Below the pieces are notes generated by a model that made no database searches, was not told where the DNA came from, and was given only the letters and a program-made list of their open reading frames with translations. Both the position numbers and the translations under genes were made by a program. Of a stretch of DNA of 64,000 nucleotides, positions 14,381-57,100 are shown piece after piece; positions within the stretch are counted from its first letter, which is position 1, and every line of letters starts with the position of its first letter. Location of the stretch: assembly GCF_000003815.2 (NCBI RefSeq), contig NC_049987.1:10646714-10710713 (forward strand). The letters run 5' to 3'. The DNA is from Branchiostoma floridae. Its lineage: Eukaryota; Chordata; Leptocardii; Amphioxiformes; Branchiostomatidae.

Positions 14381-15262
14381 CCAAACACTTGAAAGTAAAG
14401 CGTTGTTCTGTTCTTATGACTTTGCTGTATGCTTTAGCCTATAATGTAGTTGTAGTGCAGAGTGCAATTTCATCTCATTTCACCACGCTGACATAAAATC
14501 ACTATCAATTACGATAAGAATGACCATCTGATACATGATTGTAGACACACCTATAGACTTATTTGCCTGTGCGTAGTTCCACTGATCATGGATCTCGGCT
14601 GGTCAGTCCTTTCTGCACAAAGTCACCCCCATCACCTTAGCCATGCTGTAACTTTATGCTAGTGCTGAGCAGAATGTATTTTAATGAATAATGCATTTTT
14701 TATTAACTACTTGCACCAGGAGCAACAAAGTGAGGACAAGGAGGTGAAGGCTTTTTTTAAAACTCCTTGGTGAAGATAAGAAATAAAAGACTGATATCGG
14801 TTGCCATAAATGTTGCTTTTCTATCTTAGCTATCTCGCCCTTTGTAATCTTCCTGAGGTCATATTGGGATGTGGGTTAATCATTTACAAAGCGACCAGAA
14901 GAAAACGCACTCTGTTCAATTGCCGTATATTATAACAATCTTATGTACATGTATAATTATTCTATTAACAAAAGAGTTTGAATATAATTTCCCTTTGGAC
15001 TTGTCAATTTTCTAAGGGTCTTGTACAAGAGACAAATTAAAGTTGTAGATGCCCCTTCATTGACCCGCTCTGACCATACACTAACCTAACGAAGCCCTAA
15101 ATTTAGATAACCAATCGACCTTTGCTTTTGGGAACCAGGGCTTGTGTGCACAGGTTATAAGGTGATATAACAGTCCATGTTTTAAATTCAAACAAGATAA
15201 CTGATCTCCAAGTAGGTTGGTAGGTCAGCGAAAAAATCTAGTACTGTGTTCCTGTCCCAGCA
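14381..15262. other. Intergenic region with duplicated upstream unit of the secreted-protein genes
   Basis: No gene is seen. Sequence at about 14511-14700 is related to about 16915-17170 and to about 21500-21720. A block at 15116-15140 is shared with the upstream region of the second gene (see separate entry). Confidence 0.6.
15116..15140 (+). promoter_or_regulatory. Conserved upstream block of secreted-protein gene copy 1
   Basis: The block beginning CGACCTTTGCTTTTGGGAAC is nearly identical to 17610-17634 upstream of copy 2, while nearby bases have diverged. It lies about 123 bases before this ATG and about 99 before the other. The ACCTTTG core resembles a nuclear-receptor (HNF4/COUP-type) half site. 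A regulatory role is inference from differential conservation between paralogues. Confidence 0.4.
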
Positions 15263-17634: not shown

Positions 17635-17732
17635 TTTGTATGCACAGGTAATGTCACAACAGTTCACGCCTCAAGTTCAGCTCCAAGTGGGTTGGTAGAT
17701 CAGCGAGACTTTTACTGTTCCCCTGTCCCGCA

Positions 17733-19434
17733 ATGGAGTTCATATCCAGGGCAATTATAACGGTATTACTTGTAGCGGCTTGGATAGTCACAATTAGTAT
17801 CTCGGGCGCACAAAGTGCCTTAAAACCCCCGGTCTGGCCTTCCAGCTTCTCGGTAAGATTTCACGAGAAGGACTTCAGCATCTTCCACAAGCCAGTATCG
17901 ACCGAAAACGACGGCGCGTGGTACTACGACTACTCCATCCCGGCGGCACGACACGATCACCTGCAGGGACAGAACAACTCGTTCTGTCAGGTCAGTATTG
18001 ACAAGACTGTATGCCTGCATGGACCTAATGCACTTACTGAGTTAAAGTTAACTGACATTCGTGCAAGGTATGATCAGCCTAATCATGCATGCACATTCAT
18101 TTGTGGTCAGAAAAAATATAGCTATTGTAACATGCATTACATGTCATGTGCAGGTCATATCTATAACACAGCAAACGAGAAATGCTGTAACGAGAAATTC
18201 TTGAGCTCGCCATTTAAAATGTACGTGTAGCTAGCTAAATGTTGTAAACGCATTTTAAGATCTGAAATTGACACCAAGCGTTAAGAACCCTGCTTATGTT
18301 CCTGGGGAAAATAGTGTGTAAAAATCTTAGGCGCAAAGTTTTAGGTAGTAGTCCATTGTATTGTGTTGCAGGAGTTAAACGTATATTGACATATGTATGA
18401 TATATTTTACAACATCCAGGGACGCGGTCTAAACCTGACGGACCCTCACGCTGACTGCAGCCTGTTGTACGTGGATAACAGAGATATGTTCGTGCACTAC
18501 CCTGGGGAGCGGCAGTGTTGTCGGGCCTGTGGACCTGCTGAGGGCTGTACCATGATGTCTCAGACTAACCTGGCTCAAGCGACCAACGAGGCCAACGACA
18601 CGGTGAACGGGACGGCGTGCATCGGCTGGTTCATACCGCCAGAAAAGTACCCTGTCGATCAGTGAGTGGTACTCTTTGCTATGGTATTACGCTGTAAGGG
18701 AACAACCCGCCGAACTCGGTATTTGTCCGTATGTACTTTTTATTGAAAGGCCACGTCCGCAACGTTTTTCTGAAAACGTGGGAGGTACTGGCAAGAGCAG
18801 GGAGGGAGTGCGTCAACGCACGTCACACGCACGGTTGTAAGCATGTGGTCTGCATGCCGTGAGCGGTTGCGTGGATCGTTCGTGGCGCAAGTGGTGAGTG
18901 GTTGTACGTGCTTACAACGTACGATCTCTGTGCGATTGCCACTTTGCCTTATGCAGGCCGTACTTACACGTGCTGCGTAGGTATGATTTCCTTACTCACT
19001 CTATTCGCTGTGCGGGGCACTGGTACTGGTTCGTACGGAGGGGTATAGAGACAACAGAGGTATAGAGATATCAGGTATAGAAATCGGGCTAGGGATCTTG
19101 AATCCAGGCTACCGTCTTGTTAACGTTGGGTCGTGAAATCCATGACATGAAGCTATTCCGTAACCTCTAATAAGTAAAAGAAGTCATCAAATGTTTTAAA
19201 CCGCAAAATTTTAACAATCCACCTGTATTGTTGTATTTCAGCTGGTACATGACTGAAAGCGGCGTCCCGTGCTCTTGGCAGACAATACCGATCGTACATC
19301 CCATCATAGTCAGCATCCACTCCCTGACGTTCAACCAGCACAGCTACCACGTGGGCCCCATACCCCGGGGCCTGTTAAAAGTGCCGAGCTACTGTCTGAA
19401 CATCTGCCCTCACCCTTATGTACCACCTTATTGA
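17733..19434 (+). CDS. Secreted cysteine-rich LVN1.2/ependymin-like protein, copy 2
   Basis: This tandem paralogue of the preceding gene has exons 17733-17990, 18420-18661 and 19242-19434 and encodes 230 residues. Exon 2 and exon 3 lengths (242 and 193 nt) equal those of copy 1; exon 1 is two codons longer in the signal peptide. The Cys-rich core YPGERQCCRACGPAEGC is nearly unchanged, while glycosylation sites shift (NNS and NDT replace NNT and NET). The codon split by intron 2 differs, giving HWYMTE here and QWYMTE in copy 1. A TTAA-flanked foldback element begins six bases after the stop, so the 3' UTR is interrupted or displaced. A downstream AATAAA at 21157 is a candidate poly(A) signal. 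Confidence 0.85.
18690..19050. repeat. Dispersed GTACG-rich repeat (relative of 37009-37591) in intron 2 of copy 2
   Basis: This segment shares ordered blocks with 37009-37591: ACAACCCGCCG, TTTTTCTGAAAACGTGG, TCAACGCACGTCAC, GGTTGCGTGGATCGTTCGT, ATCTCTGTGCGATTGCCAC and ATGCAGGCCGTACTTACACG. It is absent from copy 1, so it inserted after the gene duplication. The right terminus looks truncated. Confidence 0.8.
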
Positions 19435-22291: not shown

Positions 22292-25200
22292 ATGAGTCGT
22301 TCTTCCAGATTCTTCCACTCCGCCATAGATTTTCTACATGGCCTGCACAACAGGGTTAAGGTAAGCACGAAATGCGAGCTGTACAACCTACAACATAATT
22401 CTATAGTATATAATATAGATACGAGTTGATTACCATTTTATTTCATCTGGCTTCGTACATAAAGAGGCTTTTCATAGGGCGTATTAGTCATTATATCTTA
22501 ATCTCACGGCGACCATATTTTGGTGGGTAATTGGATTAAACTCAGCATGCTTGTGTGTTAAACGTACACTCAAATCCAACATGGCACGACGTTGGATGAA
22601 AAGTCTTTCTGTCAAGACCCGCAACGATTTCTGAAGTGAGAAAAGAAAATTGCTGTCAAACTCATAGCTCTGGCCCTTTCGGAATTTTTTTCGTGTGTTT
22701 TCTTACGTTTTCCAGCTGATGATTTGTAGAAAAGACACGATTGTTTCATTAGATAATAAAGGATTATAAAGGTAGTACTTCTGCTGAATGGAGTAAATGG
22801 CCCAGGACCGCCGGAGATGGAAGCAGCTAGTTCGTGGCCTATGCCCAAGGATGGGCAGTAGGCCCAAACAACTTCTGCTGAATAGTACTTCTTCTTTGCA
22901 CACTCTCTCTTGTACTTTTGCAGCATGTAGTAAAGCCAATCGCAAAGGCCTCCAAGCGCAAACCGAAAGCCGTCCGACGCCTATCCTCCGAGTCTAGAAA
23001 CACGGCAGCGACGGACGTGCCCGAGGAGACCGACAACACCACCCCGATCACGAGGCTGGTGTGTCAGAACTGCGAGGCTGCGAAGATAGCCCAGTCCGTG
23101 GCTTCCGGCAGGAAACTGGACGTCACCTGTAAGACTGCCCTGGGAACGTGCGTCGTCGGCGGGCTAGTCACCCCACCCAAACTGGAACGAGAGCAGTCTA
23201 ATAGAAAGTCAGTGTATACGTATAGCGTACTAGTATATAGGCAGTGCAAGTGGAGTTGATTTCCCTAAAGTTTTTATCTTGCTTCATTAAAGCTATGCAA
23301 TGTTTTCCCATGCAACTGTTTGCTCGAGCACTTATAAATATGACCGGCCATGTCTCGGACCAAAAATACTTTTAGATATCAACTTACTCTAGAACTCTTG
23401 GGGGGAAAGTGGCGTTGGTGTGGCGCAACTGTTAGAGCCCTCGGCTAGAAATCGAAAGGTCCCGAGTTCAATACCCACCATACTATGTTGTGCTCTTGCC
23501 TTGGGAAAGGAACATAACACGGTTTTCCATTAAGGTACGCCCACCGAGCAGCTAATCTGTCTAAATGTAGGCCAAAAAAATCACTTGGTGCGCCAAGAAC
23601 CGTTAGTAGGGAAAAAGGACCACTGATATATCATATTGTTTTATCTGCTTAGGTGGATTCCAAAGGTTACCAAACACAAGAGGAAGATGAAGAAAGAGGT
23701 CGCTGCCAAACCGACGTCACAAGCACCCGACATGACACAAGGAACGGCCGCTGTTGCCATCAATGTCCAGCCCCCCTCTCCCCAGAAGGTGACGTCAGGA
23801 GGAGGAGGAGGTTGTTGTGGAGGAGGTTGTGGTTGTGGCTCGTCCCAGAACACGGCACCTCCGATCTCCATCGCTACACCTACCCGCCGGCCTGACGCCT
23901 CCGCAGCGACTGCACTGGCGACACCAGGCGGCAAGGGGGCGCTGCTGGCCGTAGCCACAAGAACACCTAGGAAACCTACACTGAAAGTTCTGTCTACACC
24001 GAAGAACACTCAGACGGGAAGGCTCGCCACCCCTTCTTTACGGAGACGGAGTGCCACGCCACGTCGGAGTCCAAAGCTTCGACGAGTAGCCCAGGCGGGG
24101 AGAGCGGGACGGACGGCTACCATGGTGGGGTTGGGAAGTCTGATGGGCGCGCGGGCGTTTGCAGGAGGGTCTGTAGCCTTTCTGGGTATCAACCTGTCCA
24201 CCACAGGTACACAAGGCTCTACTGTACAGTCGGCGAACTCTCCCAGACTTCTCATAGTTGCTGACAAGACCGACGGTCCAGGTACGCCTGGAAGATCTCC
24301 ATGGCACACACGTCCAAGGACACCGTACCACGGCCACATCAGAAGTGTTACCAAGGCGCAGCTTCCTTCAACTTTCTCAAGTCCGCATGTAGAGAACCTG
24401 AGTGACCGTACACCCTCGCATCATCAGCTTCTCTCATCCGGTCTCAAAACACCCAAGATGCGATCACCTCTTGCTAAAACTATCAGCCCTATCTCCTTCG
24501 ACTCTACCCACACACCTATCAAGAACACCCGAATGAACGTCTTCGAGGGGCGATTCACTAAGAGCCCGCAGATGTCATACCGCTCCACACCCCTGGGGAC
24601 GAGAAGGAAGCCAGACCCGGTGATGTCTTTGTCGTCCGCGATCAAAGCTGCCGGGATCACCGCCAAGTCAGCAGATGTATCTGATCTTGAGGCAAGTTTA
24701 CATCGTGTATAACCTTCGTAGAAGCGGAGGTCTTCTTATCAGTTTGTTTGTTTGTCCTAGTGTGTGTCCGCATTGTTGCAACTTACCAGTAAGGCAAATA
24801 TGGTGCAAAAAGATACTTGGTGAATTAGGTGTCTGATTTAAGTTGTTATGTAGACAAGGAAGTGATGACTATACTCTCATAAAGTGGCGTTTGTTTCATA
24901 CGCCGTCGTATTGTAGCTAATTTGATTCGATCCTCTGAATTTGTTTTTAACCTTTGGGAGCGGACTAAAGTAGCCTGGAGTCCAGCCTTGTTAGCTTTGC
25001 TCCGCTCCCGAAGGTCGCTACTCTCCTACGCTCAAGCGATTAGCGACCTTCGGGAGCGGAACAAAGCTAACAAGGCTGGACTCCAGGCTATACTTATTAA
25101 GCGAACAACTTTCAGCAAGGTTGCACCCCAGGCTATTAAAATTTGTTTGAGGATCATTGTCTGTCATTTATTGCCCTGGACTTCAAAAGTAAATTTGCTT

Positions 25201-27126: not shown

Positions 27127-28500
27127 TCACGTCTTCTTGGACTTTGCTTCCCTCTTTCTCCTCCTCTCCTCCCTGAGTGCCATCATCTTCTTTCTCTCCT
27201 GACTGTGTTGGGTCCGGCGGCGCTCGATGGAGCCCAGCTGGTACTCTATAGCTTCCATCATGTTTACTGCATCAGGGATCTGCACAAACCTGGGGGGAAA
27301 TCATTCATAATCATACAGAGGCTCAAGATTTAAGTATGAATGTACAAGGTCAAAGATGAACGCCCATGGGACATAAACAAATCTGAACCAGGGCTATTTA
27401 CAATGTTTTTGTTTTTTTTCCGTCCCACTAAATGTTTGATTTGCATTTTCAAATCTGTCATTTTAAGCGTATGAAAGAATGTTTTCATCTGTTTCATGTT
27501 AGGCTGAATATGGGAATTTTTTTCCCGTCACCACAGGTTAATTTCTGTCTTGGGACGGGTCCTGGATACAGCATAATCTGAACATTGCAATCTAACCGGC
27601 ACAGACATAAGCATTGTCACATGTAATAACTAGTGCTCAACAGTAACTTAACNNNNNNNNNNNNNNNNNNNNNNNNNNNNNNNNNNNNNNNNNNNNNNNN
27701 NNNNNNNNNNNNNNNNNNNNNNNNNNNNNNNNNNNNNNNNNNNNNNNNNNNNAAACATACATTACTTTGATGTCATTTTTCGCATGATGAGAGCCATTTA
27801 GATTTTATTAGAACTTGGCTTAATTCATTATTTGTAATCATGACAAGTTGTATTTCATGTTGCTGTCTAGATCACTTACCTTATGTTCCTTCCCTGCACA
27901 TAAAAGTCATCAAACTGCATTGTTTTCCCCCTGGAAAGCAGAACACAGAATGTGAAACAAAAGCCTACAGGTGCACAAAAGATAATGAAATTTTGAAAAC
28001 AAATGCCATCATACCAATTCTATACATGTAGGTGCTACCAGAATTCAAGTGTATAAGAATAACATTCTTCACTGTTTGAATTCGCCTAGCAATGATGATG
28101 AAGACATATACAAACTAGAATATCGACATTATGATAACGTGCTTTAGTTTAACGTTACCGTTCAATATTCTCAACAAATTGGATTGATAGTGATGATACT
28201 AAGTGCCAACGCCCCCCTCCCCACGTCAACAAACGTTGGGCCATTCAAATAAAATACGAAACACTTACCTCCCACCCTGTAAAATATACCTTAAGTAAGA
28301 ATACAACACCATTTATCCCACCTGTGGTCCGTGTAGGTACAGTATTTCATGGTGGTGTTCATAAAGGCATCCACGTTCACGATCAGCCCGAACACGGAAG
28401 CTTCGTCTCGCAGTTCCACCGTGGTCTCGTGGCCTTGTATCGCCTGGAGCAGGCACACCAGCGTGTTCTGACTGATGGCACGTTCTCGTAACGACGCCAT
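27127..28500 (-). CDS. LSM10: U7 snRNP-specific Sm-like protein LSm10
   Basis: LSm10 replaces SmD1 in the U7 snRNP Sm ring, which directs 3' cleavage of replication-dependent histone pre-mRNAs. Three exons (28500-28322, 27930-27880, 27289-27127) join in frame to about 130 residues, close to human LSM10 at 123. The Sm1 motif lies in VELRDEASVFGLIVNVDAFMN (human has [20 protein letters not shown]) and Sm2 is FYVQGRNIRFVQIP (human LFVTGRNVRYVHIP). The C-terminal tail is strongly basic (RREERRRKREAKSKKT type), longer and more charged than in human. The 27,653-27,752 N gap falls inside intron 2 and does not break the coding sequence. Confidence 0.95.
27653..27752. other. Assembly gap of 100 N in LSM10 intron 2
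   Basis: There are exactly 100 N, so this is probably a nominal-size gap rather than a measured one. Confidence 0.95.
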
Positions 28501-28604
28501 GGATATCTCCGTCAAACTTAGTGTTAATGGTATCGAGTTGAGTGGCTGGAATAGTTTATGGAATGAGATAATATCGAGAAACGTCGCGAAAAACTTTCAA
28601 AAGT

Positions 28605-34353: not shown

Positions 34354-35490
34354 CTATACCGATGTTTCATACACGACAACTCCTTTGGGAGTCAGATATT
34401 TAAATGTTGCAAGCTTTACCTCACATTTTTCTTCCACGAAGAACACATCCATTTGCCGCCGTGATCTTGCGACTCTCGTGTCTTTGTTCTGGTTGTAACT
34501 CCTTAGATCGTTGGCTTTGCCCCGATTCAGACGCAGTGCGTTCCGTACGCTTTCCCGAAACTTCTGGCTAATGAAGACATACAGGATGGGGTTGACGCAG
34601 CTGTTGGCGTAGGACATGACCATGGCGACGTGAGACACCGCCAGCATCGGCGTCAGCGGCAGGTCTGTGATGAGGTTCAGGAGCTGACACACGTGGAACG
34701 GCAGCCAGCAAACCACGAACGTCACCACGATGGCGCTCACCGTCTTGGTCACTCTGGTCCGCATGTTGGCAGAGACTCTGGCCACGGCGGCGTGAGTGGA
34801 CGTGTTGCGCCTGAGATGACGGATGACCATCAGATAAGACACGCTGATCACTGACAGTGGTATAAGGAAACCCAGGATAAAGGTGTAAGAAATGAAGGCT
34901 TGGTGCCAGAACATGGCGTTGTCAGCGGGCCAGTCTAGCATGCATCTGTAGTTTCCGTTCATCAACATGACGGTATCACTGACCGTCATGACAGGGATGG
35001 CCAGTAGGATCGCCGCTAACCACACGGACAAGCTGACGGCGACCGCTACCTTCGGCTGGCGGAGATGGGGGTGGCTGGAGGCGCGGACGATGGCCAGGTA
35101 GCGGTCCACGCTCAACACGGCCATGTTGAACACCGTGGTGAACATGTTGATGGCGTCCATGGACAGGACGATCTTACACATGCCTCTCCCGAACACCCAC
35201 CTCCCCATGGCTGCCGAGGCGGAGATGAACGGTATGCCGAGCATGAAGAGTGTATCAGCTAATGATAGGTTCAGTATGTAGTACTTAGTAACATCCTTTA
35301 CCTTGGTGTATCCCAGCAACACGTAGATCACTAGCAAGTTCCCAAGAAGACCCACCACTGATACTGTTCCGTACATCACGGGGCCTACGATAGTCGTGAT
35401 GGGGCTCGGGTCCATCTGCGCCGTCAGGAAGTAGTCCGTTCCGTTCACGCTGCTCCAGTTGCCAATGGTAAAGTCGTCAGGAATTCTCAT
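34354..35490 (-). CDS. SSTR: Somatostatin-receptor-like rhodopsin-family GPCR, intronless
   Basis: A single 378-codon exon encodes a complete seven-helix receptor. The extracellular N-terminus (about 1-35) has sequons NWS and NGT. TM1 contains GLLGNLLVIYVLLGYTKVK, TM2 LNLSLADTLFMLGIPF, TM3 SMDAINMFTTVFNMAVLSVD followed by RYLAIV, TM6 FVVCWLPFHVCQLLNLI and TM7 YANSCVNPILYVFISQKFRE. The aspartate in the VDAVNMFT-like motif of TM3 and the YANSCxNPILY box are signatures shared with somatostatin, opioid and allatostatin-C receptors. The TM3-ECL2 disulphide cysteines are present (GMCKI and YRCML). The receptor should bind a peptide with a basic residue and couple to Gi/o. Subfamily assignment needs phylogeny. 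Confidence 0.9.
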   Translation of the reverse strand: MRIPDDFTIGNWSSVNGTDYFLTAQMDPSPITTIVGPVMYGTVSVVGLLGNLLVIYVLLGYTKVKDVTKYYILNLSLADTLFMLGIPFISASAAMGRWVFGRGMCKIVLSMDAINMFTTVFNMAVLSVDRYLAIVRASSHPHLRQPKVAVAVSLSVWLAAILLAIPVMTVSDTVMLMNGNYRCMLDWPADNAMFWHQAFISYTFILGFLIPLSVISVSYLMVIRHLRRNTSTHAAVARVSANMRTRVTKTVSAIVVTFVVCWLPFHVCQLLNLITDLPLTPMLAVSHVAMVMSYANSCVNPILYVFISQKFRESVRNALRLNRGKANDLRSYNQNKDTRVARSRRQMDVFFVEEKCEVKLATFKYLTPKGVVVYETSV

Positions 35491-36420
35491 TGTGGTTGAG
35501 CGTTGGATAAGATCAGAGGAAACGGCTCTTAACTTGGAGATATCTACGGTACTGGTATTGCTAGAGTTGAAAGAGTTCGGGGCAATACCGTTTAAAAGTG
35601 AAGCTTCTTGGCGCGATGCCGTAACCGATCTCAGAGCTCATACACGCGTTTCAACTTCTGCCTTCAACGAGCCAGACGTCAAACTGAGACTCTTTCAGAC
35701 CCTTCCTTTGACTAGCTTAAAAGCCGACCAATAGACCTGTCAATCACAATGCGTGGAAACGAAGTCACGTGTCTCTAAAGGGATTTGATTGGTGCATCAC
35801 CTCCCACACGAAGTACGAATTAACAAGGCGGTACACATTAACAAAGCGGAATCCACGTCATAGTCTTTGCGATTTCACTCCAGGGGTTTGAAGCGACGCT
35901 GCCTACTCTGGTTGTAACTTGATATTCTATATTAGTATTGAGCCTGAAATTTGACATCGGTCTCAGCTGCTATGCTGCAAAAGTACCAATTAATCAGTTC
36001 ATATAAAGAGTAACACCAAAGGGTTTTAGCATGGTTTTTGTAAACAGACGCAGACTTGTCTACTACAAATACAGTCTGAAAAACATGAGAATCAAGATGA
36101 TAAAAATATACATACTACATAATGAATAGTGAAGCCGTTTACGTATATGGAGACACAAGTACATTTTATCAATCGCACCTGAGCTCGTATGTGCTTCCCA
36201 ACAATGACTCACGTTACCTTGCTGTGTTAAACTGCTTTGTCCTAATGTGACTAAGGCGTAAAATAATTCAGCTAGCTTCACCTTAAATGACATCTCAATT
36301 CAGATTCTTATAACAAACATGTTAATTTATTCAGTGCTCAAGCTCATGCATTCCTGTGACATTCACATTCAACAAACTTGATTGAAGACACACGTAATGT
36401 TTATCACTCCATGTGCAATA
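35491..36420. other. Intergenic, GPCR upstream region
   Basis: No exon is seen. The GPCR promoter should be here; no TATA box or strong motif was noticed. Confidence 0.5.
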
Positions 36421-36998
36421 CGAGGGGCGTGCAATTAGTAATGGTCCTGACCCATTTCCCATAGCAGGAGATTAATGAAACTTGGCACAGTTATTAGTCT
36501 TTCTCTTCATAGGAATCACCCAGAGTTATGCATTTCTCCCATCGTTTGATGCAGCTCTGGACACCGATTTTGTAGGACACCCCAGGTTGGTCCTCCAACT
36601 GATGCCTCATCAATGGCACAAGAGGGACGACCAGGTCTGGGAGCTGTTTCCACAGACTTCCAGCCACGTTTGAATTCAGGATGCCAGCGTTTTACAAGGT
36701 CATATGATGGGGCATCATCACCATAAGTTTCATTTATTTCATCAAAAGTCTTCTTTGGTGTGCGTCCTTTCAAATACAAAAACCGGATCACTGCGCGACA
36801 CTCAACTGGTTCCATTTCACACCTGGTCCATTTCGCACCTGACTAAGTTCAAACACCAGTAAATCAGAAACCACAATTAGTTCAGAGCTGTCTTTTGCAA
36901 CATAACCCATAGAGATATGAATTATTACACATACAAAATTTCATTTAGATCAGACAACTGGAAGTGGGTCAGGACCATTACTTATTGCACGCCCCTCG
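36421..36998 (-). mobile_element. Internally deleted mariner element
   Basis: The inverted termini CGAGGGGCGTGCAATTAGTA and its near-complement ACTTATTGCACGCCCCTCG are flanked by TA (36419-36420 and 36999-37000). Inside, minus strand 36815-36516 encodes the start of a Tc1/mariner transposase: VECRAVIRFLYLKGRTPKK, then ETYGDDAPSYDLVKRWHPEF and APRPGRPS. This is the N-terminal helix-turn-helix DNA-binding region. The catalytic D,D domain is missing, so the copy is non-autonomous. Confidence 0.93.
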
Positions 36999-37008
36999 TA
37001 TATAGCTA

Positions 37009-37591
37009 AGCTAATGGCACAACCCGCCGTACGTGCTTTTTGTCCGTACGTTTTGTTAGGTCATATCCGCCATGTTTTTTTTTTCTGAAACGTGGAGAAG
37101 TAATGGCAGGAAGATCAGTGAGGAAGAACATCTCAACGCACGTCACTCGCACGGATGCACAATGTGCACGTACGTGGTCTGCACGCCACGCCTGGTCGTG
37201 AGCCGGTTGCGTGCATCGTTCGTTGCGCAATTCGCAAGTAGTAAGTGAATTACACGTTTAATCTCTGTGCGACTGCCACGTTACCGTATGCAGGCTCTAC
37301 TTACACGTACTGTGTACGTACGGTGTCCTCACTCGCTTTATGGGACACGCGCGTCGCCCGTACAGGCTCGTACAGGAGGAGGGGGTGGCGGGCGAATCTG
37401 CAGCTCGATGGCAAACAAAGTTTTGCCCGCACATTAAGTTCTATGGCGTGTCTGCGTGCTCCAAAATCCGTCGGATCCCTCACGAGTTCGTACGGAGGTG
37501 GTATTCACCATATACGGATCCCAAAAGATTACCCACGTTTTGCCACGTAGACAGCACGTACTTGCACGTACGATGGGTTATGCCCTTAGCT
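37009..37591. mobile_element. TIR element of the GTACG-rich family
   Basis: Termini are inverted: AGCTAATGGCACAACCC on the left and GGGTTATGCCCTTAGCTT on the right, each with CGTACGTGC or GCACGTACG just inside. The interior has GTACG and CACGTAC steps but no transposase. It lies 11 bp from the mariner element and is a fuller relative of 18690-19050. Confidence 0.8.
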
Positions 37592-37849
37592 TTACAGATT
37601 GCAGAATGTATTTTTTATCACTCCCTATGCCCTGTGCAATAGTTTTAGATTGTAGAAATACTAGTCTTAACTTCGAATTCCTTGTACTTAACAAGTTTAC
37701 CCTTACCCATGCAATAGGAGACACAAGTACATTTTATCACTTCCTGTGCAAAACTTTTTTAAGAACAAAGAAATTGATCTGATAATTTCATGCAATTCAT
37801 TTTCATGTCGTAGACTCCGTTGCAGTCTTCGAACGGGGTTGTTTTTTAT

Positions 37850-38052
37850 CGGGGGGGGGGGGGGGGGGTTGTTTCGCGATTTTCAACGTTGGCTGGGTTC
37901 TCTTGTGCCGGGAAAGGGAGTTTGCCGAGGAAGCGAGTTTGCTGTGAAAGGGNNNNNNNNNNNNNNNNNNNNNNNNNNNNNNNNNNNNNNNNNNNNNNNN
38001 NNNNNNNNNNNNNNNNNNNNNNNNNNNNNNNNNNNNNNNNNNNNNNNNNNNN
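37850..38052. other. Poly-G run followed by 100-N assembly gap
   Basis: A run of about 18 G at 37851-37868 precedes a 100-N gap at 37953-38052. The gap ends 40 bases downstream, in the minus sense, of the receptor ectodomain stop codon. Its true size is unknown. Confidence 0.9.
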
Positions 38053-38092
38053 AGTGTGGTGATAACAGAAGTTCATCACCAATAGCATATTT

Positions 38093-41000
38093 TTAATCAT
38101 CTATGTCACCAGCATCCTCGTTCTCATTGGTCGGTTCACAGGCTGAAAAGTCGTGATTGGCCAAGTGTCCCTCGGGACAGGCCTCGCACGTGACGTCATC
38201 CTTTAGGTATTCTCCCTGTGCACACCGCACACACACCCAACAGCAGGAGTCTCCACGCTGGGTCACCTTTCTCTCACCGAGGGAGCACGGATCGCTGCAC
38301 ACCGACTTCGGGATGCCTTCTTCTGAAAAAACTGTCCCTTCTTCATCGCCTGGAGAAGAAGTGTTGGTCTCATTCTCCCTAGCGTGCCCTGGCCAGTGTA
38401 TGTGTTGCGGGTTGAGATCAAGAGGGTTGGAAGAAAAGCCGTTCCATTGCCCAGCGGGTCGAAAGCGAGTGTTCCCGCCTTTGGTGTGGACGGAGAAGAT
38501 GTTGTATCGTTCGGGAAGCGAGAGCGGAGTGATCCGTGTGGAGTCAAAGGTTACCTCTTCACCATGAGCCACTGTGGTTAACAACAGTATGATCACGTGT
38601 CTGTAACTCTCGCGAGTTTACGATCTGAAGTAATTGGTTATTATTGATCCTGAAGAAGACTTAAGTGATCGTTTTAAATTTGGTCCGTGTGCACATTTTA
38701 TTATTAGTGTCGGAAGAAAGTTAAGAATTGTACAAAAGACATGTTTACATGACAGTCGATATTCTTTTTTGGTAATGGTACGGTTACAATAGTCGAAGGT
38801 CATCGTACGAATTTGTATTTTATTACCTGGATGTCTATCATTAATCGACGTATGTGCTAGCAATAATTTGTGATACGCGAGATGTCGTGGCAGTTTGTAG
38901 AAATAATCTATCCATGCAGACAATAAGTTAATCAACATGAAATCAACACAGCTGTGTAATGAGTCCATACCTCCAAACGTCACGTTGGCGATGAAGTTCA
39001 TCAGGAGTTCTGTATCCAGGTTCTCCATCTGCGGACACAGGCGGTGGCCATGGCGTCCGCGGGGGCACACCTCCTCATGCATGTCGTGTAACGCACTGGT
39101 TACAACTGAGACCGCATCCTGCACTCCACGTACCCACTTGTGTTGAGACACTGTGATATCCTCTTCACCTGTTAGCGTGTCAGATATATACAAACATAAG
39201 GTGGTATCTCACTACACTTTGGGCACTGCGGGGTTCGAAACATTACGAAATGAATTTAGAAGATAAAGAACGAATGTTCTTACGTTTTGTGTATTTGGTT
39301 GACTTCTAAGTCAAGCTTTTACGTATTTCGCAACATCTAAAAAATCGGCGAAAATAACACAACAGTGTCGCAGTGAACGAACCCCGCAGTGCTGCACCTG
39401 TGCCACAAGTGCAGCGAGATACCATCTTTAGATAAATGAAATTCGAAAACGTTAAACTTTGTAATTTTTCACAACATCGCTGTAAGTCCCCTATCCCATA
39501 GTCAACGGGTTTTGGCCGTATTTGTGTCACTCAGTGGCAGAGCAGCCTTACCTGTACATGTGCAAGGTTCACCTACGCCCCCTTGCGACAGTGACTCGGA
39601 AACGCACTGGACGTGATGCTCCCAGTACTCTCCAAACCACGGGTTCCTCTTGTTGTTATGCGGTCTAAGCTTGGAGAAGTACTTTGCAAACTCTACAGTG
39701 TTAAACAGAAAATGACCACCACCAAAATCAAATTATGACCACATGATAAGCTATAGATGTTACAATGAATCAACTAAGTAACAGTGTAAGTATGAAATGA
39801 AAACGTAATCATTTAACGTCCAGAAACTGTAAAAAGTTAGTTTGTTATGTAACGTTTTGGCTTTTTAACATTAGCTTAGATAATTTAAATTTGCATTCCA
39901 CTATGCAGTGATTCTGATTTTGGTAGCCTCAAGAGTGTCTCTCACAACAGTATTGATACATTTCTTTATCCTACTTAACAACAAGATATTTCACTAAAGC
40001 GACGACCTCGCTACGTCCGCTGAGCAACCTAAAATTAGCCAGGACGTAGACTATAGACCATTCTTATTTTTCACACGACATGGAAGCTGCTCATAAAAGT
40101 CGTATGAAACACAATAATTTTTTTTCAAAGTCTTTGCCTATGAACGGAAGACTAGTGTTCAAAGAACCATTAGGGATTGCTAAATGATCGCTAAAGACGT
40201 CTTCACGCTTGCAGGTTTGGCCACTGTACGAGCTCGAGTGCTCAAGGATCCCGGAGTAAGAGTTTCTACTAAAACATCTTTTGTCCATTGTTTGCTTTAG
40301 ATCGCTTCGCGAAGGCTATGTAGTGGGATGTGGGAATGGGTTGGGGTGGGTGTGGTACTTTACCTTCCAGCTGTTCCGACTCACGGTCATGGGCGAGAGT
40401 GATAACGCTCTCCCCACAACTGGACGTCAGGACGTCATCTCTGTGCCAGGTCTCCCCGCCAAGCCACACAAAGTGATTCACAGCGCCCATCCTGAAAGCA
40501 AAACATACAGAGTGCGCCCACAAACCGTTTGTATTAAACATGTTGTTACACAACTGTTCCCCTGTAGGCATTGACAACAAAGTTCAGGAAGCTACGAAAT
40601 TTTGCTAGTAAAGGAAAAAAACAACATTGCAGAGACCTGAAAGCAAGGAACATCATGGTCAGAAAAGAAAGTATCGGAGCTGAAGATGCATTTTAGGAAA
40701 AGAGGCGAAGAAAGTCCAGGAGAGTGTCTAGACCACTGCAACAGCAGCAGAATAGTGATGATAATGATAATGCTGTTGATAATAATGCTGCTGCTGCTGA
40801 TGTTAACGTTGTTGTTCATATTGATGCTGCTGATATAGTTGATGCTGCTGATGTTCCTGCTGGTTTTGTCGATGCTGATGTTGCTATTGATGATGATGAT
40901 GGTTTTAATGATTATTATACTGATGTCGATACTTCTGATGCTATTGATGATGATGGCGAAGTCAATCCTTTCTCATCCTTCCTACTTCCTTCTCTGGTTC

Positions 41001-43466
41001 AGTACGGATTCCAACATTTTCAAACGTGAAACAATGAAAGCTTATATATATTCTGACATTATGATACATGGCGCTCACCTTTCAGCGGCAGAGAAAAGAC
41101 TGCTGGCCTGTCTGTCGGTACTGAACACCACCACTCCCACCGCACGTGCGTGCTGCAACAGCCCTTCTATAACCCGGTCCATGTCAGCTGCACCCGCATC
41201 TCGTGGAATCTTCTGGTAAGTTGCCATGCAAATACCTTGACGAAAGCCGCCAAAAAACACATACCAAAAATTTTAAGTCACGTTTTAATCAACTGCAAGA
41301 TGTGGTATAAAGGGAAAAGGCAATGATCTTTCCAGATGAAATATCTTGCACAAGGATAGGGGTGGGTACCGGTACAGAAAATTCAGGTCCAGGTCCGGTT
41401 CAGGTCCAGGAATCAGGTCCGGACCTGAACCTGGACCTGATTCATTATGTGAAAACGTATGAATGGACGATACTAAAAACAATGGTCCATTTTGCTGCAA
41501 AGATATCTGTTAAGTGTAGTATTCGACTCCACTGGCGTTTTCAAAATCCTACAAGGCTAACTGCCTCTGTACGATTGAATGTAAAAGTTGGTAAAATGAC
41601 TATAGAGTCCACTCTGCTTCGCTCATGCTATTTGCCTAGACCGGTAACCCCGAAAACATTTTCCAATCGGTTCAACATCCGGTCCCCGAATTTTTTCAGG
41701 TCCGGTTTTTCTGGACCGGTCCAATGACAAAAACCGGTTTTGTACCGGTACGCATGAAAGTACAATAAAGGTATTCATTCATTCATTCGTTCGTTTCTTC
41801 GTTCCTTCGTTCATTTATTTGTTCGTTCTTTCGTTCGTTCATTCAATAATTCATACATACATTTGCTCGTTCGTCCATGATCTAGTTTACCAATCGCTCT
41901 TGAATTCTTTTCCTTTAATACAGAAAAAAATCTGTACCTCTTCCAGACTTCTTAGCCTCCTCTAGAAAGGCATCTGCGTTCTGTTCGTAGTACCTCCCCT
42001 CAGAGACGACCAGAGACACGTAGTTCCAGCCTAACTCCTGCACGATGTCGGCCAAGACGGCGGCCTGATTTGTCTCTGATGGCGCCGACTGGAAAAAGTA
42101 CTCAAACTCCGGTAGGAGACCCGAGGTGTCGGGCGAGAAGGAGATCTGAGGCACCTGGAGAACAACATGTCATTTTTTTTTTTACAAGAATAACTCTATC
42201 ATTGCTTACAAACGCACTGATATAAGACGAGGATTTGCCCAAAGTGCCAAGTTTTGACTGTCTAGAACATTGTAAAAAAGATAGTAACTGTAAAATGTTT
42301 CATCATGTTCGGGCATTTTTACCGGAGCCATCGCATTCATTGGTTCTCAAGATTGGTATTAATTGTTTCTGGTTCTCGATAAGTTTACCGCCATATGCTA
42401 GAACGCATAGGACGATGCTAGTCTTTCCCGGTCTTGTCTTGACCTGTGTGCAAATCCGGGTGGCCGATTCATCGGAATTTGAACCACATGTAGTGGATGC
42501 ATGTGTAGACCTCTACACCATGCGGACACGACGCAGTAGTGTCTATAAAATGGCGTATTCTCTTTTAAATGTTTTAATGTTTACCTTGAATAACCCCAGA
42601 AGCTCGGCGACCACTTTTACGGCCTCGGTGCGACTGGTGGGCCCAATGACACAGACCGGTTGTTTGTGTTTGCGGCCGTGATGAGGCCTAGAACCGTCAG
42701 CACAGAAGGCGTCATCTGGCCCTCTATCCCGGTGTACAAACGTCATGGCTCCCTGCACACTCCGTAACGGATCCTTGCACGTGTCAAGTATATGAGCGCC
42801 TAGACTGATGCCTATAACCGATAAGAAACAAATTGGATGTAAAAGATCGTGTCCCTAGATTTTCTTGGTTATACGTTGAAAATGACAAGCTCGTTATGGA
42901 TAGGTATTTGGTGTTGTGCGGTCCCAATTGTTGGCGGTCGCGGTCGCGTTGGCCAGTTTGTCGTTATGAAGAGGTTGCTTAATGCTTACGTCAATAAGAA
43001 AAATGTTCGGGACCGAGTAAAAGCGATTTGACTGTTTATACAGATATTTCTAAGTTGCAACAATATAACATTGTTTTATTCTCTTAACATTTAATATGTT
43101 TCTATTGCTTCTTAGATTATGTAAGGGATTCTATTGTCAAGTGACCTACCATTGGCATTTCAATGCTACCTTTACGTGAAAACAATCCCAAAGCGCAATA
43201 TCGTTACCTGGTAGTATCTTGCCATCTCTGTTGACTTGGTCGATGGCAAACAGCATGGCCTCCAGAGCCTGAACCCCGGGTACCGACACATGCCCGCACG
43301 TCCCGTCCGGCCCGGGCTCGTGTAGCGGGAACAGGCCACCCAGGATCACGTCTCCCTCCAGGAGAAGTCTCTTCTCACCGTGTTCCCGGGATGAAACCAC
43401 GCGTAGAAGTGACAAACAGCATATAAAGACCAGTTCAAGGCACGGTCTATGTTTTCCCCCAGCCAT
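38093..43466 (-). CDS. mGluR-type ectodomain (Venus flytrap plus Cys-rich domain) with no 7TM
   Basis: Eight exons join in frame with GT-AG sites: 43466-43208, 42811-42585, 42154-41938, 41235-41079, 40491-40364, 39692-39552, 39168-38971 and 38571-38093, giving 601 residues. A signal peptide occupies about 1-26. The Venus-flytrap lobe has mGluR hallmarks: VQALEAMLFAIDQVNRDGK, GAHILDTCKDP, LFKVPQISFSPDTSG, ELGWNYVSLVVSEGRYYE, LRPHNNKRNPWFGEYWEH and GVQDAVSVVTSALHDMH. The Cys-rich domain (534-587) has all nine cysteines (CSDPC, SCCWVCVRC, TCEACPEG, SACE). The frame then ends in EDAGDIDD-stop, where class C receptors continue into TM1. The arginine in IHR/IQR that binds the glutamate side chain in mGluRs is alanine here (VQALEAM), and the GSDGW aspartate is glutamate (GGETW). 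The ligand is therefore uncertain. The product would be secreted unless a 7TM exon is hidden in the gap. Confidence 0.87.
40735..40955. repeat. Imperfect GAT/GCT trinucleotide array in receptor intron
   Basis: GATGATAATGATAATGCTG, then GCTGCTGCTGATGTT and similar triplets run for about 220 bases, giving spurious Asp/Ala-rich frames. It lies in the intron between receptor exons 4 and 5. Confidence 0.85.
41345..41755. repeat. Foldback-type repeat rich in ACCGGT and CAGGTCCGGACCTG
   Basis: The left part (about 41360-41445) repeats CAGGTCCAGGTCCGG and contains a palindrome centred on TCAGGTCCGGACCTGA. The right part (about 41637-41752) has ACCGGTAACC, GGTCCGG, GGACCGGTCC and GTACCGGTAC. GGTACCGGTACAGAAAA on the left matches the complement of TTTTGTACCGGTAC on the right, so the ends are inverted copies. 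Confidence 0.65.
41768..41875. repeat. Degenerate (ATTC/GTTC)n microsatellite
   Basis: ATTCATTCATTCATTCGTTC-type units run for about 100 bases with substitutions, directly beside the CCGG-rich foldback repeat and upstream of receptor exon 3. Confidence 0.85.
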
Positions 43467-51100: not shown

Positions 51101-54100
51101 TAGCATATATCAAGTTATTTATATGGCTATAAAATCGCATATACCATTGTGGTGGGATTTGCTACGCCCCTAGCTATCTGAATCTAAGAAAATATGCGTT
51201 AGTCAAAGGGAATAACTTTTTAGGATAGTATATATCAAGTTATGGTTTATGGTTATGGCCATAAAGCTGAATATTACATTGAGCGGCATTCGCCACATAT
51301 CAAAATACAACACAATATATGTGTTTGTATTCCCCTCAGTTGATGCGGCATCGTACAAAAGGCGGCCCGAATCCACAGCAGTCCTGAGTGGGCAAGTTGT
51401 CAACTTGCGGTGTGCGTTCAACGGACTGAGCAGTGGAGACACTGTAGTGTGGCAGGGGCCACCAAACGACGTGATCATCTCTACCGGACACACCGTGTTT
51501 CAGTCGTACCGACAGCGGCACCGCATTGTCGGGGACAGCTCCAATGGAGAGTACAATCTTCAGATTTCCCGGCTAAAGTTGGAAGATAGTGGAAAATACA
51601 AGTGTTCTACAGCGTCAGTTCCTACTGCAGAGGAAGCTGTATTAACTGTAGTTGGTACGTATGCAAAACAGGATGACAAAATACTTTTTTCGTAGCTTTA
51701 GGAAAAGGACAGGTCAGACGGTATTCCACTGGTTTCGACTTTATTCGTCTTTTTTAAGAATGACAGAGATCGGACCACTCCTCCTTTTATAACTTTTTAG
51801 GTTTAGAAAACAGCATTGTATTTCAAAGCAACGTTTATCTAAGTCCGTTAACGAATTACGAACGAAGTGACCAAAGTCTCCAACAATGAATACTCTTCTT
51901 TTAAACCTGTAGTGCCCAAAATCATGATAATGCTAGCTTCATGAGTTGTGAAAGAAAGTAGTTCACTCTTCTACAGAGGAATCATTAGTTCTATCTAAAA
52001 CAGCATTGTAAAAAAAAACTTGAATAAACCTCTAACATGGTTACTCTTGTTTCATACCTACAGTGCCAATGGCGGGACCTCCAGAGATCCTAGGAGCGGA
52101 GCTACCTCTAACGTCAGGGCACGAGCTGCTGCTGCGGTGCCGGTCCCGGGGAGGTCACCCCCCTCCCCGCCTGGTGTGGTACAACGGCACCCGGGAGTTC
52201 GGCTCGACTAACTCCCCCGGAGACACAGACGACGGACAACAGTCGCTGGAGTTGTTCTCTCCACGGGTGTCCAAATGGGACAACGGCGCAAACTTCACCT
52301 GTATGGCCGACCAAGGGTTCCCACAACTAGTCAAACCCACGGGGTCGTCTAGAATACTGAGAGTCAACTGTAAGTGTGTCTGAGAAGTTATTCTTGAAGC
52401 AGAATCATCTTATATAGCTACTGCTTACAGATATCATTCGCCCACGAAAAGCCTTGGCTATTGCCTTTATAATATGCTTTTTGGGAGGATTTAATAAACT
52501 GGACCGAGATTTCGTAAGCGTTGCCTCTAAACAGTTTTCCTAAAACCGACTTTGAAGAACAAATTTAGGCAATTCTCTGATTAGAAAATATCGCGTTAGA
52601 CCCCCACCCACCTACAAATCTGGAAACCTCAATCCGGTTTAGCTGGGTTTTTTTCATGGTATACTCTATAGGCCACGAGTGAAAAAAAGGGGCCGAAATA
52701 GGAATGTTGTCAAAGGGACTATGACATTAAATGTCATTATCCAACACATATACCCTTCTTTGGTAATATTATGGGTAAAAATGCTGCTAATAATTTTCCA
52801 ATAACGACGATTGATTTAAGACTTCAGTATGAAGCACCCAACATACATCTAGACCCCTCTTTACTGTATATCTGTTCCCCCAGACCCACCCATCGTGTCC
52901 GTCCCATCCCCCTCCGTGCACGTGCGGGAGGGCCAGACCGTGAACCTAACGTGTTACGTGGACGCCAACCCCAGGGCCACGGTCAAGTGGAGGAGGCTCG
53001 GAGACATACTGCCGACTAAGAGCCGTCAGATGTAAGCTTCTATCTTTAAGTTATTAGTAAAATTATCAAAGCTCGAAAAACGTACATGTATAATTCATGA
53101 ATTTAGTTGTGTATTGATCTATGATTTTTTTCCTACTACAAGTGTAATATAGTTATGTACTTTCAGTACGTATTGTACACAACTCTGCTATTAACCCATT
53201 GCAATTGGGCTACAATGTTGTACGTTTCTGTGTATGATAGAATATACAAATTCATCTCTCTAATCTGTCCTTCTCATTACTCATTCTAATTACGTTCAAA
53301 ATAGAATGACGTATTTTGTTGTACAGTTTTGTGAACTTGAAACTATTCGTCTAAGTATTACTAAGTACTATCTGTATTGTACCGCACTGAGAAACCATGA
53401 AAACAGCAACAAAGGCGTAGAAAAACGGCATGATCAAGTGAACGTGTCAGGCGTCACATCCAAAAAATAGTTTAAGCCAACTAGTGTCTTATTCCTACCG
53501 CCTTGTTTCCTACAACAGAGAGAAGACCCTGAACCTTCAGCAGGTGTCCAGGCAGGACCGAGGAGTGTACCAGTGTGAGGCTAGGAACAGGATCCTGCCA
53601 GATGGGATCGGAACTGTCACTCTGGAAGTCTTCTGTGAGTCATTAAAGTTAATTTTACTGTCGGTACTGTAGTGACGAAAGTGCAGTATAACTTTCTGGA
53701 GTGCATGTACATGTATGTATAAAACTATCTTAATCATCGTTTCTTATGAAACACCAACTTCGCAGGCACACGGTGCAACGCGATAATCCTCAAATTAAAA
53801 ATCTCCTACTGTACTTGGTGGTAACAATTCCACCTAACGGCCATGTAGGGAAAACGATTTTTTTAACACTTGGTTTTGAATATATGTGTTGATAGCTCAG
53901 ATACTTGAAGGCATGGCTATTTCTTGTTCCTTTCTAAGCTGAAATTAGATACTTAGTAGTTAGCACCTCCCTCAATATACCTGACTAGTCGTCAGTTGAT
54001 ATAGTGGTTAAAGTCTCTCAGATATTTTGTGGGACTCTCCGACTCCTCCATATCGTAAACAACCTTTAAACGTAATTTGTACCTGATAGATACGGCCTTA

Positions 54101-57100
54101 ACACTAGTCATAAAGCTGACATAGGGCTGCCGCAATAGACAGTGTTTTATGCTGTGCACTAGAATCAATATTTTTGACTGTACATTAGACAGACATTGCA
54201 AAGAATGCAAACATTGGTAAATTGAAACAGCGCAGACAGACACGACTGTCTATTCTAGTGTTTTAAATTATTAACTGTAACTATGATTTTACCAGCTGAG
54301 GTTCTGAGCGAACGTTAATTTGGTGTTGTTTTGGCTTATCCCATGACCTATTTTTCTCAAGTAGTTGCCACCACGTGTACGACAACTTTATAAGTAAAAC
54401 TACATGAAGTTGTAGAAATGATCGAGAGAAAACCAAAATAACCACAGCAGAAACTTCTGCTTGTAGCATAATGGCGTTGTGAGAGACAATTGATTTATTG
54501 GTTGACGCATTATCCCGCCGGCGCTACAGATCCACCGTCCATCACAAGTACACTAGACGAGAAGGTGACGGTCCTGCACACCAAGAACGACTTCTCCCTG
54601 GGGTGTCTGGCGGAGGGGAACCCGAAGCCTCACATCCGCTGGCGGCGGAAGGGTACAAACCTGTACTGGGACAACCCGCTGCGGTTCCACCGGGTGCGCT
54701 ATGACGTGGAGGGGACCTACGAGTGTGTGGCCACCAGCGACGGCTTCCCACAGGCCACCAGAGACGTGTTTGTGGACGTCGTAGGTAATAGACGGATTTT
54801 CCTAACTTCTGCGTAAAGTCGGTTTGAAATAAGGAGGTTTGAAATGTAGGTAAATATGTTAAGATGATTTTTTGGATTTTATTAAAAGTCACCAAATATG
54901 GTTGCTCTAGCGTAAGTCGTTCGGGGTTATGAGACGAGAAAGTTGGCGAAGGCCTCAAAGAACCCCACAGTCTGAATAGGGTTAAGCATGTATTGCAAAC
55001 GAAATTCCATTTGCTAATCCCTCCCCTGAATTCTGCGCCACTGTGGAATCTGCGCTCTTGGGAGCACAGGCTGGTGCCGGGAACTCGCTTGAGTTGGGCG
55101 AAAACGAGCTTTACGAGTCCTGTATTCCCCAAAAGGATACCAAGGAAAAATCCCCAATTTCACGTTAGATACTCAACCCATATGTCCTCTAATCCGCATA
55201 ATACAGTCTTTGGTCGCTAGTGCGCGATGAAGTAGATACGTAATTGGTTGTAACCGCAACATGAGTGCCCCAGTCACCTCCTTTTGGGACTGGATTTTAT
55301 AATAAAACAAAAAAAGCATTCTCCAAAACAGAGAAAGGAAGTTTTGTCATTTTGTCAATTTAATACACGTCGTCCATTATGGGCATCGATTTGCAATCGC
55401 CAGTCGATCGTAAGCGCAGTTTTGTATCATTCATTTAAATTTAGGGAAAGTCTGGAAAGGCTTGTTTATCCCCTTGCTGAAATATCAGTTGTGTGTTCAT
55501 CTGTCACTTTGCCTTGAACGATAATTAGACGAGGTGACGGATTCTCAAGGATTTAGGGACTCTAGGATTGGTGCTTTTTCGAAGTAGTCCAAGACTAGAC
55601 TGATTATTTGCAGGCGATTCAGTCATGTTAGCGTGTGTATGGAAAATAGTTTACAATGTACAATGTATTCATCAATGTACGGTTCTCGTATTTGAAGGCG
55701 TTTCAGTACCCCAGAGAAAGTAAATACCTGTTTTGCATCGTAAAAGCCAACTAGTATTGGCTGAATAGCTGAGTCGCGAAGCTTCATTTCGAAATCATTT
55801 CTGGCTAGATGAGATGTCCTTGGAAAAGGCACACGACTTTCCTCACTCTATTTACTTCAAAAGGTACCTGACTTCGGTTGGGAGGTAAAAAGTAATGAAA
55901 AGAGAGACTTGTACCAGTACCGTATCCTAAACGCAGTGGATAACAATCAACTGCATCCCTCATGGCACCAATTAATGGCGATGAGACCATCTTTTCTTTT
56001 CTTACAGGTAAGTAAGCTCTTTATTCTTTATTTCAGGGAAACCTCAGATGAAGGACGGCCCGTCCCTGGTGTCCATCGGTGACGGCGACACCGCCAGGTT
56101 CTTCTGTGACGTCATGGCAGACCCCGCCCCTAGTGACGTCACTTGGATCTGGCGGAAGACTAACGGTGTAGAGAACGTCATGGTAACGACCTATAACGGC
56201 ATCAGCATCAATAAAAAACAGACCAATGAGGGGACGTCATCCATCCTGACGATAGACCACGCCCACACGGACGATGAGGGGGTTTATATATGTAAAGCCT
56301 CCAACATGTTCGGCAAGGCCCAGAGAGAAATCAGACTCATGGTTAAAGGTACGTTATCCACTTCATTCTTTTTAATCAACGTGTTTTTTTATCAACTTTG
56401 CATATAGAGTTTCATGTGAATTTCATAGGAACGTATGACACATGTAGGTAAAATAATCAAAATAAAGACATAAAACAAAACTAGTGTAGAAAAATGGAAA
56501 ACACGTCGAAAAGTAAAAAGCAGAAACGCAAGAAACTGAAACAGTACCGCTACTTTCATACAATTTGAGAATTATGTACAGAATCCACTCTGAGTTAGTA
56601 CTTGAACACACGACCAGACTCGTCAATTTCACTTACAGGGTACTATGTACAAAGTATACGTAACTTTATACTTAACAGCATCGATACAGAGTGGTTAGAA
56701 TACGGTTACTACTACACGAGAGCATTCTGATGTACAAGGTCAACCGTTGTAACGTGATTTGATGAATGGTTTGTTGGAATTCAGCACCAAATTTGGTAAA
56801 ACATCCTATTATTTCACATTAAAGCAACAAAAGCGTCTATCAGCGAGCAAATGAGATTGGATACAATACCATTATACACAAGTGACCGCCATTATCAATT
56901 GGGTTTTACTGGGAGCCAGACTGTATGAAAGAACCTTCTTTATCTAATACTTCCCGTCACCTTTCACCCCTGTTCAGGGACGCAGACGTCCATTGCTATC
57001 ATTATTTCCGTCTCCATGGTGATGGTAGTCCTGGCCGTGGTGTCGGTTGTGGTGCTGTTCATCGCGAAGCGGAAGGAGTGGATATGTCGGCGGAAGAGAC

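Follow-up and report, generated by a model that had tools for sequence, protein, structure and literature searches.

Class IV mGluRs form the bilaterian sister group of classes I-III and include the insect receptor DmXR. The glutamate contacts of mGluRs are R78, S165, T188, D208, Y236, D318, and K409 (mGlu1 numbering), and in full receptors the joint between the Venus flytrap and the cysteine-rich domain (CRD) couples ligand binding to the membrane. To our knowledge, the soluble class C flytraps known so far are splice forms, such as GABAB1e. GABAB1e is without the 7TM domain; it has been reported to be a secreted protein and a binding partner of GABAB2 (PMC2987798). The published signature of class IV is the replacement of Arg78 and Lys409, and the backbone-contact residues are said to be well conserved in that class (PMC6307864).

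The locus described here lies in a 64-kb window, the whole stretch of Branchiostoma floridae DNA that was analysed. Eight minus-strand exons joined in frame gave 1806 nt, encoding 601 amino acids and a TAA stop; the seven introns (383-702 bp) were each GT-AG, and the 601 codons contained no frameshift, internal stop, or damaged splice site. Exon 1 (43208..43466) carries the start codon, a signal-peptide-like N-terminus, and the start of the flytrap, which continues through exon 2 (42585..42811), exon 3 (41938..42154), exon 4 (41079..41235), exon 5 (40364..40491), exon 6 (39552..39692), and exon 7 (38971..39168). Exon 8 (38093..38571) encodes the end of the flytrap, the nine-cysteine domain, and a 14-residue acidic tail followed by the TAA. 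By hydropathy, the highest 19-residue window of the protein (1.81) was at residue 8, consistent with a signal peptide, and the maximum past residue 40 was 1.28, which points to the absence of any other TM helix. A tblastn search of the 64-kb window with the 601-residue protein found its own exons only (next E 0.074), with no tandem or nearby paralogue.

The 601-residue protein matched PF01094 (the Venus flytrap, E 6.4e-50) and PF07562 (the nine-cysteine domain of the mGluR/CaSR/T1R branch of class C GPCRs, E 1.1e-15) in Pfam, a likeness well past anything that chance would give, in agreement with the original prediction of an eight-exon, in-frame gene for an ectodomain with signal peptide, flytrap, and nine CRD cysteines. 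All nine CRD cysteines could be aligned, the ninth being C587. The top-scoring relatives of solved structure (PDB) were mGlu4, mGlu7, and mGlu8 (mGlu4 E 1.8e-96 across residues 34-589), a likeness to the group III mGluRs (mGlu4, 6, 7, 8); identity to mGlu4 and mGlu7 was 35-36% in the alignment with reference receptors, yet it was equal for mGlu3 (36%) and close for mGlu1 (34%). Of 160 positions invariant in the mGluRs, 103 were kept, including all 16 cysteines and, when cysteines and pocket were excluded, 86 of 137. The alignment also showed that the features of the dimer were kept, namely hydrophobic interface positions and the inter-subunit cysteine (C123, exon 2). Unlike the group III receptors, this protein has an insertion of about 20 residues between flytrap and CRD, six of seven ligand contacts that are non-identical, and no assembled 7TM domain. 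The insertion (38321..38380 on the minus strand, limits approximate) was missing from the five aligned reference receptors. A missed GT-AG mini-intron was ruled out as its source, as GT is absent between 38491 and 38332.

Only Y236 (exon 3) was identical among the seven ligand contacts that are invariant in mGlu1/3/4/7, and this was the same in five MAFFT runs; three of the seven were kept once Asp-to-Glu was allowed, the equivalents of Asp208 (exon 3) and Asp318 (exon 5) both being Glu, a mild change. The hypergeometric P for six of seven non-identical positions was 0.0086, and it was 0.21 (not significant) with D to E counted as kept. The distal carboxylate of glutamate has lost its two holding residues, Arg78 being replaced by Ala (exon 1) and Lys409 by Trp (exon 7). 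The Ser165 equivalent (exon 2) was R, or T with a one-residue insertion placed differently, and the Thr188 equivalent (exon 3) was D. The changes at Arg78, Lys409, and Thr188 are independent of how D to E is scored. The glutamate contacts of mGluR classes I-III are thus mostly not conserved in this protein, and with so few kept a role as a glutamate decoy is, judging from the sequence, unlikely. This weakens the earlier reading of the product as a glutamate- or amino-acid-binding decoy, while the other role suggested for it, that of a dimerisation partner, is still a possible one, the inter-subunit cysteine and hydrophobic interface being intact.

In the best six-sequence tree, which covered this protein and mGlu1/3/4/7 and was rooted with CaSR, the protein fell outside mGlu1/3/4/7 (aLRT 80.8/UFBoot 75), and a topology test did not reject placement as sister to group III (AU p 0.263). 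Its branch length was 1.27, compared with 1.58 for CaSR and 0.22-0.87 for the mGluR tips. This tree position would fit a class IV mGluR, and the mGluR-type flytrap and CRD are shared with that class, as are the non-polar equivalents of Arg78 and Lys409, here A and W, which match its published signature (PMC6307864). The backbone contacts, however, which are well conserved in class IV according to the same source, are mostly changed here, with only Y236 identical (S165 R/T, T188 D, D208 E, D318 E), and the 7TM domain is not assembled. Such alteration of most backbone contacts is atypical of class IV and, together with the group III placement (AU p 0.26), counts against assignment to that class.

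The 7TM domain was not found in the assembled sequence, as had been claimed. Pfam searches detected no PF00003 in three minus and three plus read-through frames between 28.2 and 38.1 kb, and nothing at E up to 0.1 in the three minus frames between 43.5 and 53.4 kb. When the 7TM domains of mGlu1 and mGlu5 were used as queries against the whole 64 kb, the best HMM match had an E of 0.42 and the best tblastn match an E of 0.092 (46082-45954, 43 residues, upstream of the gene). As a control for sensitivity, a tblastn search with the mGlu4 ectodomain touched all eight exons, seven of them below 1e-4, with exon 5 (E 1.1) scoring no better than the best non-exon match (0.78); mGlu1, mGlu3, and mGlu7 each touched seven of the eight, the weaker matches having E values as high as 0.22, and CaSR touched four. 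Since exons were detected this unevenly, a 7TM domain split into very short exons could have escaped detection. An assembly gap written as exactly 100 N starts 40 bp past the stop (37953..38052), so the description of the gene as ending before the membrane region holds for the assembled sequence only. The gap is abutted by a 17-bp minisatellite of 2.6 copies (37906..37950), which could be the cause of the assembly break.

The TAA (38095-38093) lies 14 residues past C587, and a candidate 5' splice donor, CTG/GTGACA (38104..38112, minus strand, cut at 38110/38109), precedes it at the CRD/TM1 boundary. The original prediction had named a possible donor here, GCTG/GTGACA, and the site is indeed donor-like, weak but usable: on a frequency matrix it scored 1.02, compared with 0.40 to 8.07 for the seven used donors, placing it above one of them (0.40), the other six being at 3.04-8.07. 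The cut is in phase 1, as in five of the seven introns, and falls in the tenth codon past the final cysteine of the CRD, at the position of the pre-TM1 tryptophan of mGlu1. The AG/GT present in all seven used donors is absent, and the TM1-linker motif (YLEW in mGlu1, YIKW in mGlu3) is replaced by the acidic NENEDAGDIDD.

The nearness of the gap, the minisatellite, and the phase-1 donor at the domain boundary make a 7TM exon in the gap the likeliest explanation, and on balance the locus is probably a divergent class IV-like mGluR gene truncated by the assembly. The assembled exons would then be the 5' (ectodomain) part of the gene, the 38110/38109 donor of exon 8 would be joined in the transcript to a 7TM exon inside the gap, and the apparent stop would be intron read-through. 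The encoded protein would sit in the membrane as a disulphide-linked dimer, with a flytrap that may sense a ligand other than glutamate; as a relative of the mGluRs whose pocket is largely replaced, it would be an orphan receptor. The retention of all 16 invariant cysteines and of 103 of the 160 invariant positions, and the class IV-like Ala and Trp at Arg78 and Lys409, also favour this reading. Genes for class C ectodomains alone are rare a priori, which also counts for truncation by the assembly. Against a 7TM exon in the gap, introns of 383-702 bp suggest that some 1 kb or more of sequence would need to fit into it; the weakness of the donor, with no AG/GT, and the missing YLEW/YIKW motif point the same way.

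Possible, though somewhat doubtful, is a true ectodomain-only gene, whose product would be a secreted, disulphide-linked flytrap/CRD dimer serving as a non-glutamate carrier or decoy, or a partner in the ER that alters a membrane class C receptor. The intact 601-codon frame with its seven GT-AG introns, the complete set of 16 cysteines and the interface beside a pocket with six of seven contacts non-identical, the insertion at the flytrap/CRD joint, the signal peptide with no further TM helix by hydropathy, and the failure to find a 7TM domain in the assembled sequence are all consistent with it, as is an ATTAAA that overlaps the stop (38092..38097, minus strand), a possible poly(A) signal that may be chance. 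GABAB1e and related class C isoforms are a precedent, being flytrap ectodomains without a membrane domain that may act as secreted or dominant dimer partners (PMC2987798), but they arise by splicing from a gene for the full receptor, whereas here a 7TM-encoding form was not seen and the gap could hide one. With the gap only 40 bp away, the 3' side of the gene is also unread, the stop is located at a plausible place for an exon boundary, and the pocket signal is lost when D to E is counted as kept. Still more tentative is a specific role for a stand-alone secreted, covalent dimer in which the fold of the mGluRs and their dimer chemistry persist while the 7TM domain and glutamate pocket have been lost: outside the cell it may carry a ligand that is not glutamate and is perhaps cationic, act as a decoy for it, or partner a receptor that responds to it. 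If the 7TM domain is truly absent, this would be a class C flytrap made soluble at the level of the gene rather than by splicing, and it would be overlooked in any GPCR survey that selects for a 7TM domain; among the matches listed from the open-licence literature (titles and abstract openings), no amphioxus or other animal gene was described as a class C ectodomain alone.

Loss of the 3' half of a receptor gene by deletion or rearrangement, leaving a decaying or recently truncated gene, appears unlikely. The transposon-like elements reported downstream are present, as two stretches bounded by inverted repeats: a Mariner-like element (36418..37001; 66-bp repeats, 82% complementary) with a Mos1-type HTH_48 remnant identified by Pfam at about 36663-36806 on the minus strand, and 37008..37592 (29-bp repeats, 86% complementary), which has no Pfam match and is probably a transposon remnant. 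These stretches, the 41-bp imperfect direct repeat that flanks them, the eroded pocket, and the long branch would fit such a loss, but the undamaged frame and splice sites and the retention of 86 of the 137 invariant positions outside the cysteines and the pocket do not suggest decay.

Splicing of the ectodomain to the next gene downstream, a single-exon class A (somatostatin/opioid-like) receptor of 378 aa (34354..35490), which would combine a class C ectodomain with the 7TM domain of a class A receptor, is very improbable: the gene is on the same (minus) strand and its frame is open upstream of the ATG to 35637, but no evidence supports the join, and it appears to be a separate gene, with its own start codon, a short N-terminus with sequons, and a match to somatostatin receptors from residue 35.

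The mGluR-like gene encodes a 601-residue protein in eight in-frame exons on the minus strand, from 43466 to 38093. All seven introns are GT-AG, with lengths of 383-702 bp and phases of 1, 0, 1, 2, 1, 1 and 1, and the GC content of third codon positions is 0.61, compared with 0.39 across the introns. Pfam searches identified a family 3 ligand-binding domain, the Venus flytrap (PF01094, E 6.4e-50), followed by the nine-cysteine domain, or CRD (PF07562, E 1.1e-15), and the original prediction of an eight-exon ectodomain gene with these two domains was accurate. At the joint between the flytrap and the CRD there was an insertion of about 20 residues with two N-glycosylation sequons. There were 99 distinct PDB sequences matching the protein at E ≤ 0.001; among the best 60, which were the matches listed, mGlu4 (1.8e-96), mGlu7 and mGlu8 were at the top, then mGlu2, mGlu6 and mGlu3, then mGlu1 and mGlu5, with CaSR lower. 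Identity in the alignment (36% to mGlu7 and mGlu3, 35% to mGlu4, 34% to mGlu1, 29% to CaSR) does not separate the mGluR groups.

The class C membrane domain (7TM, PF00003) was not found by Pfam in 28.2-38.1 kb in three minus and three plus frames with stops read as X, and the minus-strand scan did recover the 7TM of the neighbouring class A receptor (PF00001, 1.9e-63). In tblastn of the mGlu1 and mGlu5 7TM against the whole window, the best match had an E of only 0.092 (43 residues, 46082-45954, upstream of the gene). An HMM built from both reached at best E 0.42 on the window's 1637 ORFs with a minimum length of 25 residues. As a sensitivity control of comparable divergence, receptor ectodomains were scored on how many of the gene's own exons they matched. 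With that of mGlu4, all eight exons were touched, seven below 1e-4; exon 5 (E 1.1) was no better than the best non-exon match (0.78). Seven of eight exons were touched by each of mGlu1, mGlu3 and mGlu7 (weakest E 0.03, 0.22 and 7e-5, respectively), and four by CaSR. Had the assembled sequence contained an ordinary 7TM exon, the searches would very probably have detected it; a very short one might have escaped.

We favour a 7TM hidden in an assembly gap, because class C genes with only an ectodomain are, to our knowledge, rare, because the frame stops at a point where an exon could be expected to end, and because unread sequence, a 100-N gap at 37953-38052 adjoined by a 17-bp minisatellite (37906-37950), starts 40 bases beyond the stop. 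Exactly 100 N usually denotes a gap of unknown length. Two GT sites lie between the ninth CRD cysteine codon (inclusive) and the stop. Under a consensus matrix, CTG|GTGACA (G at 38109) has a score of 1.02; among the seven used donors, one is lower (GAG|GTACAG, 0.40) and six are higher (3.04-8.07). The other site, CCT|GTGAAC (G at 38139), scores -2.19. Splicing at CTG|GTGACA would be phase 1, as in five of the seven introns, and in the alignment it falls at the tenth codon past the last CRD cysteine, matching the pre-TM1 tryptophan of mGlu1. Against this site, all seven used donors have AG|GT, which it lacks, and its use would require a gap much longer than 100 bp. With a 7TM in the gap, the product would be a membrane-bound, disulphide-linked dimer whose flytrap would close on a ligand other than glutamate.

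The alignment (the protein with mGlu1, 3, 4, 7 and CaSR) had the same outcome in each of five MAFFT runs with different settings, some of which are not independent of one another. The protein keeps 103 of the 160 columns invariant across the four mGlu sequences: 16/16 cysteines, 86/137 other positions and 1/7 ligand contacts. These seven positions, taken as the glutamate contacts and chosen after inspecting 22, are, in mGlu1 numbering, R78A, S165R (T under another placement of a one-residue insertion), T188D, D208E, Y236Y, D318E and K409W. Their depletion had a one-sided hypergeometric P of 0.0086 (0.016 excluding cysteines); with three further invariant positions among the 22 (S166 to T, S317 to G, W320 kept), 2/10 were kept (P 0.0042). 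Counting against an altered pocket, 3/7 remain if the mild change of D to E is scored as kept (P 0.21), so that the firm part of the claim is R78A, K409W and T188D rather than the statistic. CaSR keeps 3/7 and also has E at 318. That this protein has lost two basic contacts and acquired an acidic one is a hint that its ligand may be cationic. The inter-subunit cysteine is kept, as are 116/120/174/177 (V, M, L, L) of the hydrophobic interface.

The changed pocket, the joint insertion and an acidic tail are also compatible with two readings that are still alive: a genuine stop, making the product a secreted dimer, or a broken gene. For secretion the closest precedent is GABAB1e, which lacks a 7TM and is described in PMC2987798 as secreted and binding GABAB2; functional block is reported from that paper's own assay only for the related GABAB1l and GABAB1m.

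Class IV mGluRs are described as the sister of classes I-III and include two of the five amphioxus mGluRs studied in the account of Ramos-Vicente et al. 2018 (PMC6307864). As class IV is described there, the protein shares replacement of the Arg78 and Lys409 equivalents (A and W) but has changes at most of the conserved backbone-contact residues. According to PMC2695807, DmXR, an insect member, senses L-canavanine and requires Thr-176, conserved in all mGluRs, which we infer to correspond to mGlu1 Thr188. A six-sequence tree placed the protein outside mGlu1/3/4/7 (aLRT 80.8, UFBoot 75). Membership of class IV is only suggested, because the backbone signature is not shared and because an AU test of eight topologies rejected at 0.05 only that as sister to mGlu3 (p 0.029); a position as sister to group III survived the test (p 0.26). 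Nordstrom et al. 2008 (PMC2246102) give two counts of B. floridae Glutamate-family GPCRs, 18 in their abstract and 17 in their text.

The class A receptor (34354-35490, minus strand) is a single exon of 378 aa, whose PDB matches are somatostatin receptors (best receptor 2, 8.6e-73), then opioid receptors. Two adjoining inverted-repeat stretches occupy 36418-37592, one mariner-like with a Mos1 HTH_48 remnant and the other carrying inverted repeats of 29 bp. The pair lies between the two copies of an imperfect direct repeat of 41 bp (36381-36421 and 37714-37754, 78%). ORFs at 15242-15562 and 17652-18227 (plus strand), with translations 77% identical over 108 aligned positions, are an apparent tandem duplicate; neither had a Pfam match, nor did a basic Ser/Pro-rich ORF of 361 residues at 23627-24709 (plus strand). 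An ORF at 28294-28596 (minus strand) contains an LSM domain (6.1e-07), and four ORFs at 51216-56404 (plus strand) match immunoglobulin domains and are perhaps exons of one adhesion-type gene.
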